A stretch of 53,731 nt of DNA, taken from positions 1-53,731 of IMG/VR virus record IMGVR_UViG_3300037071_000543. One strand, 5' to 3'. Below the pieces are notes generated by a model that saw only the letters and a program-made list of their open reading frames with translations, ran no database searches and was not told the DNA's origin. Numbering within the stretch: the first letter of the stretch is position 1; every line of letters starts with the position of its first letter. This DNA is from a virus. Below are positions 28,459-50,597 of the stretch, piece after piece. A program made the translations under genes and the position numbers.

Positions 28459-28896
28459 TCAATGCTTCACGCCAGCCTTGATCGATCGCACCTCCGCGTG
28501 GATCGCCGCCATTTCGAAGCGGATTTCGTCATCCGTCATCGAACTGTAATTGTGGTTGAAGGTCGAGACGTTGACGCTCCGATCGATGAACAGCCCAAAC
28601 AGTTTGGCCTTGCACGCCCCGGCTTGGACGGCGGCTGACACCTGCCCGAGCTTGAGCGCGTAGGCTCGATCCTCATCGAACTGCGCGGCCATCGAATCGA
28701 TCGTCACCTCGACCCGCGCCAGCGCCTTGCCTTGGAGTTCGGCGATCCGCGCGACGACATTGCCTTTTCTAGCCAGCCTCGACGCATGTTGCATGGATGG
28801 TCGATACCCTGCCAGCGCATATGCCTCATCCAATGTCTTGCCGGTGACGCGGAACTGACAGAACGATTCCTGTCTGGCATTTTTGAGAATTGGCAT
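28459..28896 (-). CDS. Terminase small subunit
   Basis: 145 residues, starting MPILKNARQESFCQF with GAGG 7 bases before ATG 28896. The first half has the terminase small-subunit HTH pattern: RQESFCQFRVTGKTLDEAYALAGY, then HASRLARKGNVVARIAELQ. The remainder is helical with a central helix for oligomerisation (ALKLGQVSAAVQAGACKAKLF). It should bind packaging sites and load the large subunit. The repeat region at 29.1-29.3 kb upstream is a candidate binding site. Confidence 0.8.
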   Translation of the reverse strand: MPILKNARQESFCQFRVTGKTLDEAYALAGYRPSMQHASRLARKGNVVARIAELQGKALARVEVTIDSMAAQFDEDRAYALKLGQVSAAVQAGACKAKLFGLFIDRSVNVSTFNHNYSSMTDDEIRFEMAAIHAEVRSIKAGVKH

Positions 28897-29071
28897 CAGA
28901 CATCCTCTGAGTTTGCCAAGCGGTGAGCGCCGCGTGATGCTGATCGACGTTCCGGCTTGGATTTTTCCATGCGAATTTGAACATCGCCATTTTCTGCTCT
29001 TCGGCAAGTGCCTCCCGGTTGGGATAGCTTTGAACGAATACGTCCCATTTGGCTTTGTGTTCTGGCGTCAT
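28826..29071 (-). CDS. Small protein overlapping the terminase small subunit gene
   Basis: 81 residues. GGAGGGGAAA before ATG 29071 is a strong ribosome site. Helical N-terminal part (PEHKAKWDVFVQSYPN, AMFKFAWKNP) with lysine and aromatic residues. It overlaps the next gene by 71 bases, which is long for this genome. The family is unknown; the ribosome site supports it. Confidence 0.6.
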   Translation of the reverse strand: MTPEHKAKWDVFVQSYPNREALAEEQKMAMFKFAWKNPSRNVDQHHAALTAWQTQRMSDANSQKCQTGIVLSVPRHRQDIG

Positions 29072-29091
29072 TTTCCCCTCCGGTTCATCGA

Positions 29092-29312
29092 AAAAGTGGC
29101 TGGACCATGTGGTTCAACCTCCCCTCATAGAGGGGGAGGGTTGTGAACCAGTCCACAAGGGTGGTCTCCGGTTTCGATTTTGGTCCAACCAATGTTGCTA
29201 TGTAAATATGTGAAAACATTAACAAATCTATCGATGCTGGTTCAACCTAAACCCCTGAACCAAAAAGGGCTGGACAAATCGCTTTTGGTTCACACTTTAT
29301 GCGGGTGAACCA
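29092..29312. repeat. TGGTTCA/TGAACCA iteron-like cluster with hairpin; possible origin or packaging site
   Basis: Heptamer TGGTTCA and its complement alternate at 29110, 29144, 29238, 29256, 29286 and 29306, with a near copy TGGTCCAACCA at 29181 and GGTTCA at 29092. The first pair closes a long hairpin (29111-29149) with a CCTCCCCTC/GAGGGGGAGG stem. An AT-rich stretch (29195-29236) with TAAATATG and AAAACATTAAC lies in the middle. Iterons, AT-rich DNA and a neighbouring RepA-like gene are origin features; the neighbouring terminase small subunit makes a packaging site also possible. Confidence 0.6.
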
Positions 29313-30403
29313 GCAACTTCTGATGTGCCTAATTCGAGCGCCTTTTCGCCCTCCTTGGTGAGGACCAGTTTGCCCGAATAATCACGCATCCACTTCTTTT
29401 CGCGGAGCCGATCGACGGTCCTGCGGGCGGTGCTTCGCGATGTCTGCGCCTTCACCGCGATTTCGCGCTCTGACAGGTTGGCCTCCGCGTGGACGGCGGC
29501 GAGTATGGCAAGCTCGACCCGGTTTTGTTCGGTCTTGAGTTCGGCCTCGCGGCTTTCGACCATTGGCCGGACCACGGTGGCCGCCATCTGGTTGCCTTCG
29601 CTATCGAGCAGGTATTCAGGCTTGATGATCGCGGACTCCAGTTTGATCGGATCGAACGGGATGCCGCGCAGCTTGCCGAGCCAGTGGAAGGTGGCGACGT
29701 TGCCCTCCACCCATGAGGTGAGGTTGCCGTCGAGTTCATTGGTGATGGCCGAGCCGCCGCGTGGCAGCAGATCGTCGCGCTTGGCCCGCTTGACCGGGTG
29801 AGCCACGATAATCCCGACAGGTCGCGCCGGGTGGAACTCCAGCAGCGATCGGAAGTCGGCGGCGAAGTCGAGCATGGCCGTATTGAGGCTGTCATCGTCG
29901 CCGAGGAAGAAGGCTTGCAGGCTGTCGAAGACGACCAGCGCAAGGTCTGGATACTCGCCGAGCAAATACTGGATGCGATCGGTCGCCTCCGAGATGTCGA
30001 ACACGCCTTCATGCCAGACGATCGGCAGATCGTAGGGATCGATGCCAAGCTCCGAGCACATCCCGTAGAACTGGTAGCGGACGTTATCGGGGTTTTCGCC
30101 AGCGAAAATTACAACCGTGCCTTGCTGGCACTTGCGACCGCAGAACCACTCGCCGCGCGCCACCTTGATGGCCATCAGGAGAGCGATCAACGTTTTGCAG
30201 TGCCCAGTGTTGCCGGTGAATGTGTAGGTCGATCCGCGTAGCAAAACACCTGCCACCAAATAATCCGGTGGTTGCATCTTTTCGAGAAATTCGACGGAAC
30301 TGATGAAGCCGTTGAACTTGCGGCCTCGCTTGCGGGCCTTTTTGGGCTTGGAGAAAGCGCCTTCGCCATTGAAAAACGGTCGTTGGCCCGGCTCATGTGT
30401 CAC
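29297..30403 (-). CDS. RepA-like RecA-fold ATPase with C-terminal winged helix
   Basis: 368 residues from GTG 30403 (AGG 6 bases upstream); a longer ATG start at 30472 is possible. The P-loop is GNTGHCKT (about residue 62), where Cys replaces the usual Gly before Lys. Walker B is LALVVFDSLQAF, and GIIVAHPVKRAK with RGGSAITNELDG follow as in RepA/AAA_25 helicase-type ATPases. The last 70 residues form a winged-helix region (LSEREIAVKAQTSRSTARRT, LREKKWMRDY). Such proteins open or load replication forks. The adjacent repeat region makes a replication role likely. Confidence 0.8.
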   Translation of the reverse strand: MTHEPGQRPFFNGEGAFSKPKKARKRGRKFNGFISSVEFLEKMQPPDYLVAGVLLRGSTYTFTGNTGHCKTLIALLMAIKVARGEWFCGRKCQQGTVVIFAGENPDNVRYQFYGMCSELGIDPYDLPIVWHEGVFDISEATDRIQYLLGEYPDLALVVFDSLQAFFLGDDDSLNTAMLDFAADFRSLLEFHPARPVGIIVAHPVKRAKRDDLLPRGGSAITNELDGNLTSWVEGNVATFHWLGKLRGIPFDPIKLESAIIKPEYLLDSEGNQMAATVVRPMVESREAELKTEQNRVELAILAAVHAEANLSEREIAVKAQTSRSTARRTVDRLREKKWMRDYSGKLVLTKEGEKALELGTSEVAGSPA

Positions 30404-30566
30404 AAAACACCTGCCGACCGCTTGAATTGTGGGGGAAAATGGATAGATTGCATGGGAGTAGACCCTCCTCATCCGTTCGCAGGTTGGTGGAGTTTCTGGG
30501 GCCGGTGGTGTTCGAAGCACCCCGGCCCCCATTCTTATCCGGCTCACCGGATTTTTCTAGCCCCAT
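30393..30566 (-). CDS. Possible small coupled open reading frame
   Basis: 57 residues, MGLEKSGEPDKNGGRGASN, starting 7 bases after the VRR-NUC stop and overlapping the RepA start by 11 bases. The ribosome site is weak and the composition is polar with no recognisable fold. It may be a leader that couples translation of the ATPase gene, or may not be expressed. Confidence 0.3.
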   Translation of the reverse strand: MGLEKSGEPDKNGGRGASNTTGPRNSTNLRTDEEGLLPCNLSIFPHNSSGRQVFCDT

Positions 30567-30575
30567 AGTCCGATT

Positions 30576-31043
30576 TCAAACCGACACCCGGACCTGTCGG
30601 CGGATCGCTCCCCAGCCTTCGAGCACGGCCAGCGCATCATCCACGGTGTCGACCCACGCCACCTTGCCCCCGGCCTGCTCGACCTCATCCATGAACAAAA
30701 GCTGTGATTCGGTGGGCTTCTCGCCGCGCCGCTTGAGTTCCAGCACATGCACGCGCGCGCCGCCCGGCTGGATCAGGATGAAGTCGGACACCCCGGCCCG
30801 GGCTCCCATGCGCTTGAGCCGTCCGCCCTCGATCGATCGGCGGGTGATTGTGCCGTCCTTGTTCTCCTTCCAGATTGCCGATCGCTCGCCGCCGTTGGGC
30901 GGGTGAAACCACAGCCAGCCCGGAGCCTTGCCAACCCGCAGGTAGTCGGCGATGACGCAGTGCATTTCGAACTCGGTCGCGCCTGTCGGTCTCACTCCGC
31001 GCTGCCGTGGCCCCTTCAGCAAATCCAGTTGGCGCTCGACCAT
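30576..31043 (-). CDS. VRR-NUC nuclease
   Basis: 155 residues. The VRR-NUC pattern is clear: TEFEMHCVIADYLRVGKAPGW, GVSDFILIQPG, then VHVLELKRRGEKPTESQLLF (Asp near residue 88, E-L-K near 103 and the S-Q pair near 113). These are PD-(D/E)XK enzymes acting on branched or nicked DNA. ATG 31043 follows TGTACTACG, an operator-type palindrome, so expression is probably repressed from the central control region. It is the first gene of the leftward block. Confidence 0.88.
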   Translation of the reverse strand: MVERQLDLLKGPRQRGVRPTGATEFEMHCVIADYLRVGKAPGWLWFHPPNGGERSAIWKENKDGTITRRSIEGGRLKRMGARAGVSDFILIQPGGARVHVLELKRRGEKPTESQLLFMDEVEQAGGKVAWVDTVDDALAVLEGWGAIRRQVRVSV

Positions 31044-38497: not shown

Positions 38498-38896
38498 ATG
38501 GAACGCTACCTTCAACTCTTCGAAGACCCCAAGGACGCCGTGGCCGAGGGTTACGCGGAGTTCAACCGCAACCCGACACTCACGGTCGACATCCCGGACG
38601 GCGGCTTCACCATCTCCGCCCGGACCAGCGAGGGCAAGCGGGTCACCTTCGCCTTCCAGCCCTACCGCCACGGCGGCCCGCCCCAGTGCGTCGATGTCGC
38701 CTACCACGACAACGGCACCTTCCGCCTCGATCGCCCGGACGACAAGATACCGACCTTCAACATCATAGTCTTCGGGCAGACCTCGCACGGTCGCGGCCAC
38801 TCCGACCAGTTGGACACCCGCAAGGCCGAGTTCAAGCCCGGGATCGTCTGTGTCCTGATGGACGGCAAGAAGGAGACCAACGATGCCGAGAAGTGA
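38498..38896 (+). CDS. Small beta-rich protein
   Basis: 132 residues. Strands TLTVDIPDGGFTISARTSEG and RVTFAFQPYRHGG and NIIVFGQTSHGRGHS are followed by an acidic tail. It overlaps the DUF3560 gene by 14 bases. The function is unknown. Confidence 0.7.
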   Translation: MERYLQLFEDPKDAVAEGYAEFNRNPTLTVDIPDGGFTISARTSEGKRVTFAFQPYRHGGPPQCVDVAYHDNGTFRLDRPDDKIPTFNIIVFGQTSHGRGHSDQLDTRKAEFKPGIVCVLMDGKKETNDAEK

Positions 38897-39674
38897 TTAC
38901 GAAGCCCGCCAGAACGCCCGCCGCGAGCGACTGGCTGACAAGGCCGAGCGGCTGCGCAAGGAAGCACAGGCCCGGTCCAAGGCGGGCTGGGACGCCCTGC
39001 ACGCCATCCCCTTCGGCCAGCCGATCCTTGTCGGCCACCACTCCGAGCAGCGCGATCGCAACTACCGCAAGCGCGCCATCGGCAACATCGACAAGTCGGT
39101 GATGCTCAACAAGGCCGCAGGCGAGGCCGAGGCCCGCGCCGACAACATGGGTAGCGGCGGAATCTCCAGCGACGACCCGACCGCGATCGACAAGCTCAAG
39201 GCCAAGCTGGCCAAGCTGGAGGCCGAGCAGGCGCAGATGGTCGCCACCAACAAGGCGGTGCGATCCAAGGACCCGACCGCCGCCCTGACCGCGCTGGGCT
39301 TCGGAGCCGCCACGATCGGCGCGCTGCTGACGCCCGACTACGCGGGGCGCAAGGGCATCCCGAGCTACGCCCTCTCGAACGCCAGCGCGGTGATCCGCCA
39401 GACCCGGCAGAGGATCGAGCAACTTGAACGCGAATGCACTCGCGTGCAAGTGGTGACCGAGACCAACATCGGGCTCACGGCGATCGAGAACACCGACGCC
39501 AACCGGGTGCAACTGATCTTCCCCGGCAAGCCCGACGCGGAGACCCGCACCCTGCTGAAGCGATACGGCTTCCGCTGGAGCCCGAGCGAAGGCGCGTGGC
39601 AGCGGCTCCTCAACAACGCGGGCATCTACGCGGCCCGCACCGTGATCGACCACCTCACAGCAAAGGAGACATAA
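38883..39674 (+). CDS. DUF3560 protein
   Basis: 263 residues. The N-terminal part is helical (RQNARRERLADKAERLRKEA), with GQPILVGHHSEQRDRNYRKR in the middle as in DUF3560. A long coiled coil (residues 95-130) follows. The C-terminal RVQLIFPGKPDAETRTLLKR, YGFRWSPSEGAWQR is the usual end of these proteins. The family is common in plasmids and phages; its function is not known, though the C-terminal part resembles DNA-processing domains. Confidence 0.85.
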   Translation: MPRSDYEARQNARRERLADKAERLRKEAQARSKAGWDALHAIPFGQPILVGHHSEQRDRNYRKRAIGNIDKSVMLNKAAGEAEARADNMGSGGISSDDPTAIDKLKAKLAKLEAEQAQMVATNKAVRSKDPTAALTALGFGAATIGALLTPDYAGRKGIPSYALSNASAVIRQTRQRIEQLERECTRVQVVTETNIGLTAIENTDANRVQLIFPGKPDAETRTLLKRYGFRWSPSEGAWQRLLNNAGIYAARTVIDHLTAKET

Positions 39675-46924: not shown

Positions 46925-47223
46925 GCGACATGCTGGCTATGATCGTGAAGCAGCCAAGGAACTACTGCGCCACGGCGGGCGACGTGTGGGCATCGATCGA
47001 CACCATTGCCGAGATGTCCGGGATGTCGCTGGGCAGGCTGGCACTCACGGCTGACCTCGACCAGTCGATGTTCGCTCCCAGTCGGCGGGCGCGCAACGCG
47101 CTGTCACTGTCCACGATCCTCAAGCTGCTCGACGCCTTGGACCTTACGATCGGCGACTGGGCAGAACTGGTCGAGGCCGAGGTAGCGAAGCGCATCGATT
47201 ACGAACGCAGGAGAGGTTTATGA
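46921..47223 (+). CDS. XRE/CI-like repressor
   Basis: 100 residues, ATGA overlap. The sequence SIDTIAEMSGMSLGRLALTA, then DLDQSMFAPSRRARNALSLS, then TILKLLDALDLTIGDWAELV is a lambda-repressor-type HTH with recognition around DQSMFAPS. It belongs to the operon whose promoter holds the 17-bp palindrome. It may compete with the Cro-like protein at the same sites. Confidence 0.7.
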   Translation: MSDMLAMIVKQPRNYCATAGDVWASIDTIAEMSGMSLGRLALTADLDQSMFAPSRRARNALSLSTILKLLDALDLTIGDWAELVEAEVAKRIDYERRRGL

Positions 47224-48197
47224 CTGACGCATGGGAATCTTGGCGGAAGCGGCTTGTGGACCCGCGCATTCCGATCACCACCACCCCTGAATGGGGTTTC
47301 TACAAGACCCGCTACGAGAACAAGCCTTGGGAGCCGGTCGCCATCTGGCAGGACGAAAACGGCAAGTGGATCGCGTACCGCTCCGGGAAGGAAGTCGAGA
47401 CCGAGAAGATCGACAAGCTATGGGAGTGGTGCTGCGGTCGACCGATCACGGAAGAGGCCTACGACAAGGCGGTTGAGACCGGCGAGTGGGACGGCGACGA
47501 CCCGACCGTGGCCAGCATGATCGGCCACAATGTCGGTGATATTTCCGATGTCGAGCTTCTGAAGGACCAGATCGAAAACGCCAAGCAGGGAGCCGACGCC
47601 TACCGCAAGATCACGTCCGACGATCAGGCGGCGAAGGCGCAGTCGCTCCGGGCGCGGATGAACGAACTCGCCGGGCTCGCGGACAAAAAGCGCGAGGCGC
47701 TGAAAAAGCCGCACCTTGAGGCCGGGCGGCAGGTGGATGCCGAATGGCAACCGATCATCAAGGACGCCAAGGCGGTCGCTGACGTGCTGCGCAAGGCGAT
47801 CGAGGATCACGAAACGGCGAAGCTGCAAGAGCGCCGCCGCATCGAACGCGAACGGCAGCGGGCAGAGCAGGAGAGATTGGCCGAGGAAGAGCGCGCCCGG
47901 GAGGAAGCGCGCGCCGCCGAAGCCGCAGGACGGACGGTCGTGTTACCCCCGACGCCTGCACCTCTCCCGCCCCCGCTGCCACCGCCAGAGACCAAGGTCA
48001 AGGGCACCTATGGCCGGGCCGCCAATGTCGGCACGGAACTGGTCGTCACCGCCGTCATCGATCAGGACGCGCTCTACCACTTCCTGCGGGAGCATAACGA
48101 CCTGCGGCGGTGCCTGTACGATCTTGCGACCCGGGCGGTGCGGGCCGGGCACAATCCTCCCGGCATCACCTACGAAGAAAGGGCGAAGGTCACATGA
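47220..48197 (+). CDS. Coiled-coil protein of the recombination operon
   Basis: 325 residues. The N-terminal part is alpha/beta (YKTRYENKPWEPVAIWQDEN). From 120 to 240 it is a charged coiled coil with Arg/Glu runs. A Pro linker follows and then a conserved end (DALYHFLREHNDLRRCLYDL, ATRAVRAGHNPPGITYEERA). The end motif is shared with phage proteins found near annealing proteins. Its role is unknown; it may work with the Bet-type protein. Confidence 0.7.
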   Translation: MTDAWESWRKRLVDPRIPITTTPEWGFYKTRYENKPWEPVAIWQDENGKWIAYRSGKEVETEKIDKLWEWCCGRPITEEAYDKAVETGEWDGDDPTVASMIGHNVGDISDVELLKDQIENAKQGADAYRKITSDDQAAKAQSLRARMNELAGLADKKREALKKPHLEAGRQVDAEWQPIIKDAKAVADVLRKAIEDHETAKLQERRRIERERQRAEQERLAEEERAREEARAAEAAGRTVVLPPTPAPLPPPLPPPETKVKGTYGRAANVGTELVVTAVIDQDALYHFLREHNDLRRCLYDLATRAVRAGHNPPGITYEERAKVT

Positions 48198-48655
48198 CGA
48201 TCGAGTTCATCAAGGGCCGGAATTTCACCGAGTCGGATTTTTTCGAGTTCATCGGCCCGCCCGGCAACGGCAAGACCCTTTCGCCGCTGCCGCATGCGGA
48301 GCCGATCGACCCGCTGGAGTTCTTGAATCTGCTGGCCAGCGGCGGCCACGGCATGGTTCCTAAATGGGGCTACGCCCGCTTGCCGGAAGATGAGTTTCGT
48401 AATACACGTAGCCAGTGGACCCAGTTCTTTCTGACCACCCACATGGGGCGCGGGCTCGACGGCAGCGGCTACGCGGTCACATGGGGCGGAGCCCGGTGGA
48501 TCGACGGCAAGGCGTATCAAACGCCGATCGTCCGGCGCTTTGCCATCTGCAAGCATGAGAAGGAAGACGCGCCGGGCGCGAATCACTCGCGCGGCTGGCA
48601 TCCCGGGCACTGCAAGCTGTGCGGGATGGATATGTCCTACGATAGCGGAGATTGA
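48194..48655 (+). CDS. Zinc-binding protein of unknown function
   Basis: 153 residues, ATGA overlap. CKHEKEDAPGANHSRGWHPG, then HCKLCGMD form a possible zinc site near the C-terminus. GPPGNGKT near residue 21 looks like a P-loop but is not followed by an ATPase fold. The function is unknown. Confidence 0.65.
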   Translation: MTIEFIKGRNFTESDFFEFIGPPGNGKTLSPLPHAEPIDPLEFLNLLASGGHGMVPKWGYARLPEDEFRNTRSQWTQFFLTTHMGRGLDGSGYAVTWGGARWIDGKAYQTPIVRRFAICKHEKEDAPGANHSRGWHPGHCKLCGMDMSYDSGD

Positions 48656-48657
48656 AA

Positions 48658-49698
48658 TTGGCCAACGAAGTCGCGCTGCAACCGTCCCGCCTGCCGATCG
48701 CCCCGGCGATCGCCAAGGAATACGACCTCTCCCCGGCAAGCTGGCGGGTGCTGGTCGAGCAGACATTCCCAGCTGCCAAGACGGTCGAGGCCGTGCTCAT
48801 GGCGCTGGCCTACTGCCACGCCCGCAAGCTCGACATCTTCAAGCGGCCAGTCCACATCGTCCCTATGTGGAGCCCGCAAAAGGGCGACTACATCGAAACC
48901 GTGTGGGAGGGCATCGCCTCGATCCGCACCACCGCGAGCCGGACAGGCGAATACGCGGGCATCGACGCGGTGGAGTTCGGCCCGGTGGTCGAGCAGACAT
49001 TTCGCGGCGAGGCCTACGACTACAAGGCCAAGCGCATGGAGCCGATCCAGAAGGACGTGCTCTACCCGGAATGGGCGTCGGTCGTGGTCTACCGGATCAT
49101 CAAGGGCGTCAAGTGCGCCTTCCATGCCAAGGTCCACTGGCGCGAGATGTACGCGACGATGGGCAAGTCTGGCGTGCCCAACGAGATGTGGACGAAAAGG
49201 CCGTTCGGCCAGATCGACAAGTGCGTCGAGGCCGCCGCGCTGCGCAAGGCTTTCCCGGAGGAACTGGGCAACACCTACATCTCCGATGAGATGGAGGGCC
49301 GGACGATCGACGCGGAGGCTGGCCCGGTTGCCGAGGTGAAGCCACGGCTGGCACCGCCGAAGCCGCCTGCCAAGGAGGAGACCAAGCAGATCGAGGCGGA
49401 GCCCGAGAAGACCAAGGCGGAGCCGAAAAAGACCCCGCCGAAGCCGCCGACCGCCAAGAAGGAACCGGAACCGGAGGAGGAAGGTGAGGCCGAAGGCGAG
49501 GCCGAGCAGGCCGAGACCCCCGGCGACATGCTGTCGATGCTGGATGAGGCGCTGTCGGCGGCCACGACCGTCGAAGAGGTCGAGCAAATCTATGACGAAT
49601 CGGACATCGAGGCCGCGCTCCAGAGCCATCAGAACGGAGACCAGTTTGCTGGCGTGGCGCTGGGCATCAAGCGCAGGCACATGAAGCGGGTGGCGTGA
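48658..49698 (+). CDS. bet: Bet/RecT-type single-strand annealing protein
   Basis: 346 residues from TTG 48658 (GGAG 8 bases upstream; TTG 48652 is closer). It follows the phage Bet pattern: VEAVLMALAYCHARKLDIFK, then RPVHIVPMW and YIETVWEGIASIRTTASRTG, then SVVVYRIIKGVKCAFHAKVH, then KCVEAAALRKAFPEELGNTY. The last 130 residues are Pro/Glu/Lys-rich and acidic, longer than usual. It pairs complementary single strands in phage recombination. The matching 5'-3' exonuclease is not obvious in the window; the VRR-NUC protein is one possible partner. Confidence 0.88.
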   Translation: MANEVALQPSRLPIAPAIAKEYDLSPASWRVLVEQTFPAAKTVEAVLMALAYCHARKLDIFKRPVHIVPMWSPQKGDYIETVWEGIASIRTTASRTGEYAGIDAVEFGPVVEQTFRGEAYDYKAKRMEPIQKDVLYPEWASVVVYRIIKGVKCAFHAKVHWREMYATMGKSGVPNEMWTKRPFGQIDKCVEAAALRKAFPEELGNTYISDEMEGRTIDAEAGPVAEVKPRLAPPKPPAKEETKQIEAEPEKTKAEPKKTPPKPPTAKKEPEPEEEGEAEGEAEQAETPGDMLSMLDEALSAATTVEEVEQIYDESDIEAALQSHQNGDQFAGVALGIKRRHMKRVA

Positions 49699-50597
49699 TG
49701 GCTGTCTCGCGCGGCAAGGTCAGCGACGGGCCAAAGATTTCGATGGTGGTCGAGAAGGGCCGACTGGTCCCTGCGTCCGCCTTCGACTTCGAATTGCTCA
49801 ACGCATGGCGCGAGGGCGCGATCGTCAACGTCAGCCCCGTGCTGGCCCAAAACAGGCCGCTGGAGCGCCGCTACTTCGCGATGCTATCCAAGCTCATCAA
49901 GGTCGCGGAAACGCCTTGGACGAACACCGAGGCGGCGCACGAAGCGATTAAGCTGGCGACCGGGTTTGTCGAGCCGTACCAGAGGAAAAACGGCGAGTGG
50001 GCTGCGGACGCGCGCCACATCTCGACGTTCACCGACACCGAATTGCAGGAGTTTTTCGAACTGTTCTGCGGCATTGTGCGCAGGCGGTTCGAGATTGACC
50101 CGGACACCCTGCGCAAGGAAGCGCCGGACACGGGCTCTCTTCCATCCAGATCGTCGGAGGCTTCCAGCGCGACTGCCGGAACCGACGATGGCCCCGGCGT
50201 TGACCCTATCCCGGTCGACGCTGGGGAACCTTTCTCCTCTGCCCCCCCGGCTTTGGTGGAGGACGAACCGGAGGCGGGTGATGTTTCTCCATCGTCACCC
50301 GCCGATGGTCCGCTCACCAAGGAAGACATGGCTTGGCTGAAGACGGCGGCGCGCATGCTGGTCGCGGCCACGGCTGTCGGCGGTGGTGTGTCAGAGGTCA
50401 CCGTTCTCGACCGGCAATGGGCGGCGATCCTCCGCTACAACACCGCCCGGTCAGTCACCCCGCAGGCCCGCGCGATCGCGCTGCGCATTCACGAATATTG
50501 CGATGCGGCGGTCGTCGGCGGAGGTCCGTTCGAGCGCGACTGGATCGCCAATATGGCAGGCTGCAAGGTCGAGGATTTGCGCCCGGAGGCACGATGA
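49698..50597 (+). CDS. DUF1367 protein with extra C-terminal part
   Basis: 299 residues; TGATG sets ATG 49698. Residues 40-125 follow DUF1367 (NRPLERRYFAMLSKLIKVAE, then EAAHEAIKLATGFVEPYQRK, then FTDTELQEFFELFCGIVRRR), a family near phage recombination genes. A low-complexity linker and a helical C-terminal part (DRQWAAILRYNTARSVTPQA) follow. It lies right after the annealing protein. The biochemical role is unknown. Confidence 0.75.
   Translation: MAVSRGKVSDGPKISMVVEKGRLVPASAFDFELLNAWREGAIVNVSPVLAQNRPLERRYFAMLSKLIKVAETPWTNTEAAHEAIKLATGFVEPYQRKNGEWAADARHISTFTDTELQEFFELFCGIVRRRFEIDPDTLRKEAPDTGSLPSRSSEASSATAGTDDGPGVDPIPVDAGEPFSSAPPALVEDEPEAGDVSPSSPADGPLTKEDMAWLKTAARMLVAATAVGGGVSEVTVLDRQWAAILRYNTARSVTPQARAIALRIHEYCDAAVVGGGPFERDWIANMAGCKVEDLRPEAR

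Follow-up and report, generated by a model that had tools for sequence, protein, structure and literature searches.

In phage lambda, the origin lies in gene O and its iterons are read by a winged-helix initiator. In SaPI/PICI elements, which are phage-inducible islands of Staphylococcus and of Gram-negative bacteria, two sets of iterons flank an AT-rich region (PMC6092414), and the C-terminal domain of the SaPI Rep recognizes iterons directly downstream of its gene, as stated in the passage of PMC7581432 that cites Ubeda 2007. The C-terminal domain of SCCmec Cch2 also binds repeats directly downstream of rep (PMC7581432), and deletion of oriV abolishes replication of SGI1 (PMC7433901). At oriV of RSF1010, where iterons occur together with stem-loops, RepC is needed for the iterons and the ssi hairpins for priming, and in the crenarchaeal plasmid pRN1 (orf904), the origin lies immediately 3′ of rep and includes an essential stem-loop (PMC4234260).

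Here, we analyzed a viral DNA of 53,731 bp (hereafter the window), which is a whole IMG/VR virus entry without end repeats and carries an array of alternating TGGTTCA/TGAACCA heptamers at the end of a rep gene. Reading from the sequence, we estimate a probability of roughly 0.84 that this array serves the phage as its replication origin, of the iteron type and belonging to the adjacent upstream rep gene. This reading is strongly supported because the array follows a RepA-type helicase gene, contains an AT-rich core, is replaced by differing arrays at the same place in relatives, and covaries with Rep. Environmental phage origins are mostly unmapped, and the literature collection that we searched contained nothing on the origins of AAA_25 phages.

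The proposed origin is laid out like the SaPI/PICI origins, although we do not class it as a member of that family. It lies directly 3′ of a helicase gene and has two iteron sets around an AT-rich region, and C-terminal reading of the iterons by Rep is a candidate third likeness, given a predicted winged helix and a consistent switch of repeats between two relatives (L006 and L007; see below). SaPI Reps, however, are DUF927 or D5-type helicases, whereas the Rep encoded here is of the AAA_25 type, and the window belongs to a tailed phage that encodes capsid and terminase proteins of its own, not to a satellite. With RSF1010, the locus shares a RepA-type helicase fold and the presence of iterons and a hairpin at the putative origin, but in RSF1010, a separate RepC recognizes the iterons, whereas here a winged helix is predicted within the helicase polypeptide; among the annotated ORFs of the window, we found no RepC. 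Such an arrangement suggests that origin recognition can be a task of the RepA-type helicase itself, one that RSF1010 leaves to RepC. As in pRN1, the proposed origin and its hairpin lie just downstream of rep, but pRN1 has an SF3 helicase fused to a primase and a 100-nt stem-loop instead of an iteron array. The likeness to lambda is that TGGTTCA copies occur inside phage_rep_O/DnaD-type genes of other phages; the lambda initiator, in contrast, is not the helicase, and the iterons are contained in its gene. SCCmec Cch2 and SGI1 also have repeats directly 3′ of rep but differ in helicase or initiator family, repeat sequence, and arrangement.

The heptamer array and the adjacent Rep protein

Six exact heptamers lie within 29110–29312, and their orientation alternates strictly: 29110–29116 (+), 29144–29150 (−; the plus strand reads TGAACCA), 29238–29244 (+), 29256–29262 (−), 29286–29292 (+), and 29306–29312 (−), the last of these within the final codons of rep. 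Three more copies carry one mismatch, namely a variant iteron TGGTCCA at 29101–29107 (−; TGGACCA on the plus strand), the same variant at 29181–29187 (+), and a doubtful, outermost CGGTTCA at 29081–29087 (+), so that the array spans 29081–29312 in total. In 20,000 dinucleotide-preserving shuffles of this interval, the heptamer count never exceeded two, and TGGTTCA is the 7-mer of highest density in the window, tied solely by a GC triplet repeat. The at least six alternating heptamers noted near 29092–29312 in the initial annotation are thus present and far beyond what shuffling yields. Read in the direction of rep, the array thus begins inside the end of this gene, and its far end is ≈200 bp past the stop codon.

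The iterons form two sets, 29101–29187 and 29238–29312, on either side of the 50-mer of lowest GC content in the record. This 50-mer begins at 29177 and is 28% GC, with no other place in the 53,731 bp as low; we propose that the AT-rich core (29177–29236), which had also been recognized initially, is an unwinding element. Between two facing iterons lies a G/C hairpin, CCTCCCCTC-ATA-GAGGGGGAGG (29118–29139), with one bulged base. Extended by these iterons, the first of which doubles as its left foot, the hairpin reads TGGTTCAACCTCCCCTC-ATA-GAGGGGGAGGGTTGTGAACCA (29110–29150). The region folds well below shuffled sequences (z = −4.6 and −4.2 on the two strands), in agreement with the strong hairpin described earlier. 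An intrinsic terminator was considered and rejected: the array holds no terminator-like site, and the hairpin lacks a T run. An Rfam search of the region gave no match. A host-type origin was likewise rejected, as no DnaA box with zero or one mismatch is found in 29000–29400; with alternating orientation and no DnaA box, the locus also departs from the direct-repeat layout of classical plasmid iteron origins. The GC-skew check that had been suggested was uninformative, with no clean switch at 29 kb. In direct DNA comparison, relatives of the window gave short matches only, and an overlapping contig, L002, is identical to it across 7 kb.

The genes immediately flanking the array are all on the minus strand, in the order VRR-NUC nuclease (30576–31043), Rep (29297–30547), array, small ORF (28826–29071), terminase small subunit (TerS, 28459–28896), and terminase ATPase. 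The array had been described as lying between a RepA-like ATPase gene and terS; the first neighbor is as described, but the array does not abut terS, the 81-residue small ORF being located between them. This ORF looks conserved; in a by-eye comparison, similar ORFs occupy the same place in two relatives (L006 and L008). The start of TerS, inferred from relatives, is probably at 28896.

Profile searches assign Rep to AAA_25 (6e-18), the RSF1010 RepA type, with weak matches to winged-helix families at its C terminus and none to a DUF927 or D5 family; the C terminus of a Rep relative that is 53% identical passes the MarR cut-off. The start codon is uncertain, with the first ≈60 codons not conserved. 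A tblastn search for Rep relatives in a phage database and a PDB search with the Rep sequence each returned none. We built an AlphaFold model on 24 family members (mean pLDDT 88.7, pTM 0.83); an earlier model from a shallow alignment (pLDDT 42.6) was not used. The best structural match to the helicase core is RSF1010 RepA (1g8y; Z = 21.7, RMSD 2.7 over 215 residues), with DnaB and RecA-like chains scoring just below it, and the rows of the structural alignment (VIA-align) span Rep residues 14–273. In this model, Rep has a RecA-like helicase fold of the RSF1010 RepA type, which bears out the initial designation of a RepA-like ATPase. The Walker A motif (30191–30214, minus strand) is unusual in having a cysteine in place of a glycine, GNTGHCKT compared with GPTGHGKT in the 53% identical relative. 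The C terminus is modeled as helix-helix-helix-strand-strand, and this predicted winged helix (residues ≈331–412, encoded by 29312–29557, minus strand) is our proposed iteron-binding domain.

Arrays in relatives of Rep and of the terminase

Relatives of Rep were retrieved from entire genomes of alphaproteobacteria, with Rep as the query, and from viral contigs, with a profile of Rep; most are 25–53% identical. Among loci with enough sequence, the strongest hexamer cluster falls between −100 and +350 of the Rep stop in 29 of 35 genome loci (top 2% of windows). In the viral loci, the strongest heptamer cluster is in this interval in 22 of 39 and is not top-ranked there in the other 17, and the interval contains a 50-mer from the AT-richest 1% of the locus in 26 of 39. 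The repeated words vary and include CGTACC, CGTTCC, CTGAACA, CGGGACA, CGATACG, CGCACGA, and CAAAACG, among others. Of 43 strong arrays, 41 combine both orientations, and 28 enclose the AT minimum, compared with 16.4 expected from span alone. Across the wider AAA_25 family, similarity between iterons tracks similarity between Reps (Mantel p = 5e-4), with the C terminus not separable from the ATPase as the driver in that family (partial r = 0.08). The closest Rep relative, L281 (53% identical over 338 residues), lies near a tyrosine integrase and has six copies of TGCCCA after the Rep stop; no TerS or TerL homologue occurs within 18 kb of it. Likewise, the flanks of the 39 viral Rep relatives contain no homologue of TerS or of the ATPase half of TerL; one relative, L316, has a weak match to the nuclease half. 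Because arrays are present without a neighboring terminase, the repeats go with Rep.

These recurrent arrays also bear on whether the heptamers are operators through which Rep or another phage regulator controls how the terS-terL operon or rep is transcribed, with no origin function. Iteron-binding initiators frequently double as promoter repressors, and the AT-rich core contains a single weak promoter-like match on the minus strand (29206–29177). We nevertheless consider a purely regulatory array unlikely, as arrays that lie across an AT minimum after many replication helicase genes, with varied genes downstream, suit origins better, and an operator role could coexist with origin function.

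The relatives of the terminase, drawn from IMG/VR, give the complementary comparison. TerL is 72–77% identical in the closest set and 48% identical in L051. These phages keep VRR-NUC, TerS (41–54% identical), and TerL but differ by exchange of the gene that separates VRR-NUC from TerS: it encodes an AAA_25 protein in L004, L005, L013, and L051, a VapE protein in L006 (and, by alignment, in L007), a D5 protein in L008, and a PrimPol-AAA_25 protein in L012. Among the first ten TerL relatives, no TGGTTCA cluster is found except in L003, the identical twin of the window. Instead, a different repeat fills the slot after rep in five of eight phages with related terminases, the words being GTCTCA (10 copies, L006), GTACCA (9 copies, L007), AGTGTA (L008), GAAATCA (L012), and CGTAAC (9 copies, L051).

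A blind search for the densest heptamers placed a leading cluster after rep in the window, L006/L010, L007, L008, L012, and L051. The gap after the rep stop ranked first or near first among windows of the locus in the same set (the window, L006, L007, L008, L012, and L051) and was not top-ranked in L004, L005, and L013. In eight of nine loci, this gap also includes a stretch that ranks among the most AT-rich there. A search tolerating mismatches found nothing significant in L004 and L013, both with AAA_25 Reps, or in L012; the array of L012 is weak, as is that of L005 with mismatches allowed. Besides iterons, the gaps of L005, L006, L007, and L008 contain alternating CG/GC tracts (GCGCGCGCA-like), which are possibly a second origin element. 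L006/L010 have, ≈660 bp past the rep stop and apart from the GTCTCA iterons, a second array of four to five copies of GGACGAAAA.

Since the repeats change or vanish while TerS and TerL stay, TerS probably does not read them. This speaks against a packaging (pac/cos) site bound by TerS, such a site having been offered as the alternative to an origin. Pac sites are commonly in or close to terS, and the array lies only ≈200–400 bp upstream of that gene. Nonetheless, phages with TerS 41–54% and TerL mostly 72–77% identical carry other repeats or none at this place, and L281 and the 39 viral loci described above combine related Reps with flanks free of such terminase homologues, so we reject a packaging site as very improbable: the repeats track Rep, not the terminase. 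The other half of that initial proposal, a replication origin, gains from the position of the array, its AT core, the arrays of relatives, and the covariation with Rep.

The pair L006 and L007 illustrates this covariation. Their VapE Reps have near-identical helicase cores and have diverged over the last ≈100 and the first ≈100 residues. The regions downstream share a common backbone, GGCGCGCrCAGGAAArGGGTTTT...AGTGCCCT, found elsewhere in just one more record, that of L010, and on this backbone every iteron differs, GTCTCA in L006 versus GTACCA in L007. Such a switch is expected if one end of Rep reads the iterons, which by the SaPI precedent would be the C terminus. The pair offers a natural experiment in the joint change of specificity of an initiator and its origin.

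Proposed initiation and the breadth of the origin type

In the origin that we propose, the winged helix of Rep would bind heptamers of both sets, and Rep hexamers would assemble at each. The AT-rich core would then melt, Rep would load itself as the replicative helicase and move outward, and the first primers would be laid by a separate phage primase or by that of the host. A candidate for the former is a primase-like protein (phrog_19458) encoded by a separate gene at 38883–39674 (plus strand). The G/C hairpin may be a priming signal exposed in single-stranded DNA, comparable with the RSF1010 ssi hairpins, or may act in a transcript.

The hairpin of the window is suggestive because RSF1010, which has the same type of helicase, primes at its ssi hairpins. 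In a first, mostly genome-derived set of related loci, hairpins of the C-first type (CCCC-TTA-GGGG) are present in 27 of 42 gaps compared with 111 of 558 control windows (p = 3e-9). The viral set did not reproduce this preference (9 of 34 versus 109 of 668, p = 0.15), and we therefore regard a GC-rich hairpin as recurrent in the related gaps but not defining.

The array is very probably an initiation site of a widespread kind, with a landing-pad word that varies between phages and a layout that stays constant. As a practical rule, candidate origins can be located from sequence by looking past the stop codon of a replication gene of the AAA_25, VapE, or D5 type for heptamers arrayed in mixed orientation around an AT minimum. 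More tentatively, these loci may constitute a widespread class of origins, in phages and prophages alike, whose Rep is both a helicase of the RSF1010 RepA type and, through a winged helix of its own, the origin-binding protein. The heptamers of this class would switch with the DNA-reading part of Rep on a backbone that is kept, leaving the origins of related phages mutually blind, and the associated G/C hairpin would be a priming signal.

We also scanned all of IMG/VR for three alternating TGGTTCA copies, defining as dense those places where at least five copies fall within 300 bp. The scan returned 118 places, 27 of them dense, compared with 69 places and 3 dense for a permuted heptamer. The 27 dense places fall into 14 groups, including the window's own twin (L153). 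Apart from L153, and with L108 and L115 left out, 10 of the 11 annotated groups have their dense array next to or within replication genes. These genes encode Toprim/DUF927 primase-helicases, PrimPol-AAA_25 (L147), VapE (L191), lambda-O or DnaD-like initiators, and an uncharacterized protein whose gene is directly 5′ of DnaB. The exception, L165, has its dense cluster near an IS1595 transposase. Although that case, and the existence of centromeres and recombination sites built from short inverted repeats in arrays, could point to some other cis-acting site (centromere or parS-like, or for recombination) or to a remnant of mobile-element repeats, we give this hardly any weight, as a helicase gene directly adjoins the array, the AT minimum lies within it, and this layout recurs across many Rep relatives. 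In L097, L135, L177, L200, and related loci, Toprim/DUF927 primase genes adjoin 10–12 TGGTTCA copies, and in L097, an SSB gene lies on the other side of the array.

The split terminase and other genes of the window

The terminase large subunit of the window is split into an ATPase half (27936–27148, 262 residues) and a nuclease half (17965–17216, 249 residues), both on the minus strand and 9.2 kb apart. The literature collection that we searched contained nothing on split terminases. The same split occurs in ten relatives and in the window's twin contig, with the halves separated by 20 bp in Acetobacter musti, 0.3–0.7 kb in Rhizobiaceae, and up to 11.5 kb in the L004 record; in the annotated phage relative MW202478, TerL is one gene. 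From these sequences, the group looks like a clade with a split TerL in which genes have accumulated between the halves. Elsewhere in the window, a recombination module (47220–50597, plus strand) encodes homologues of an exonuclease, a single-strand annealing protein (RecT-like), and NinB.
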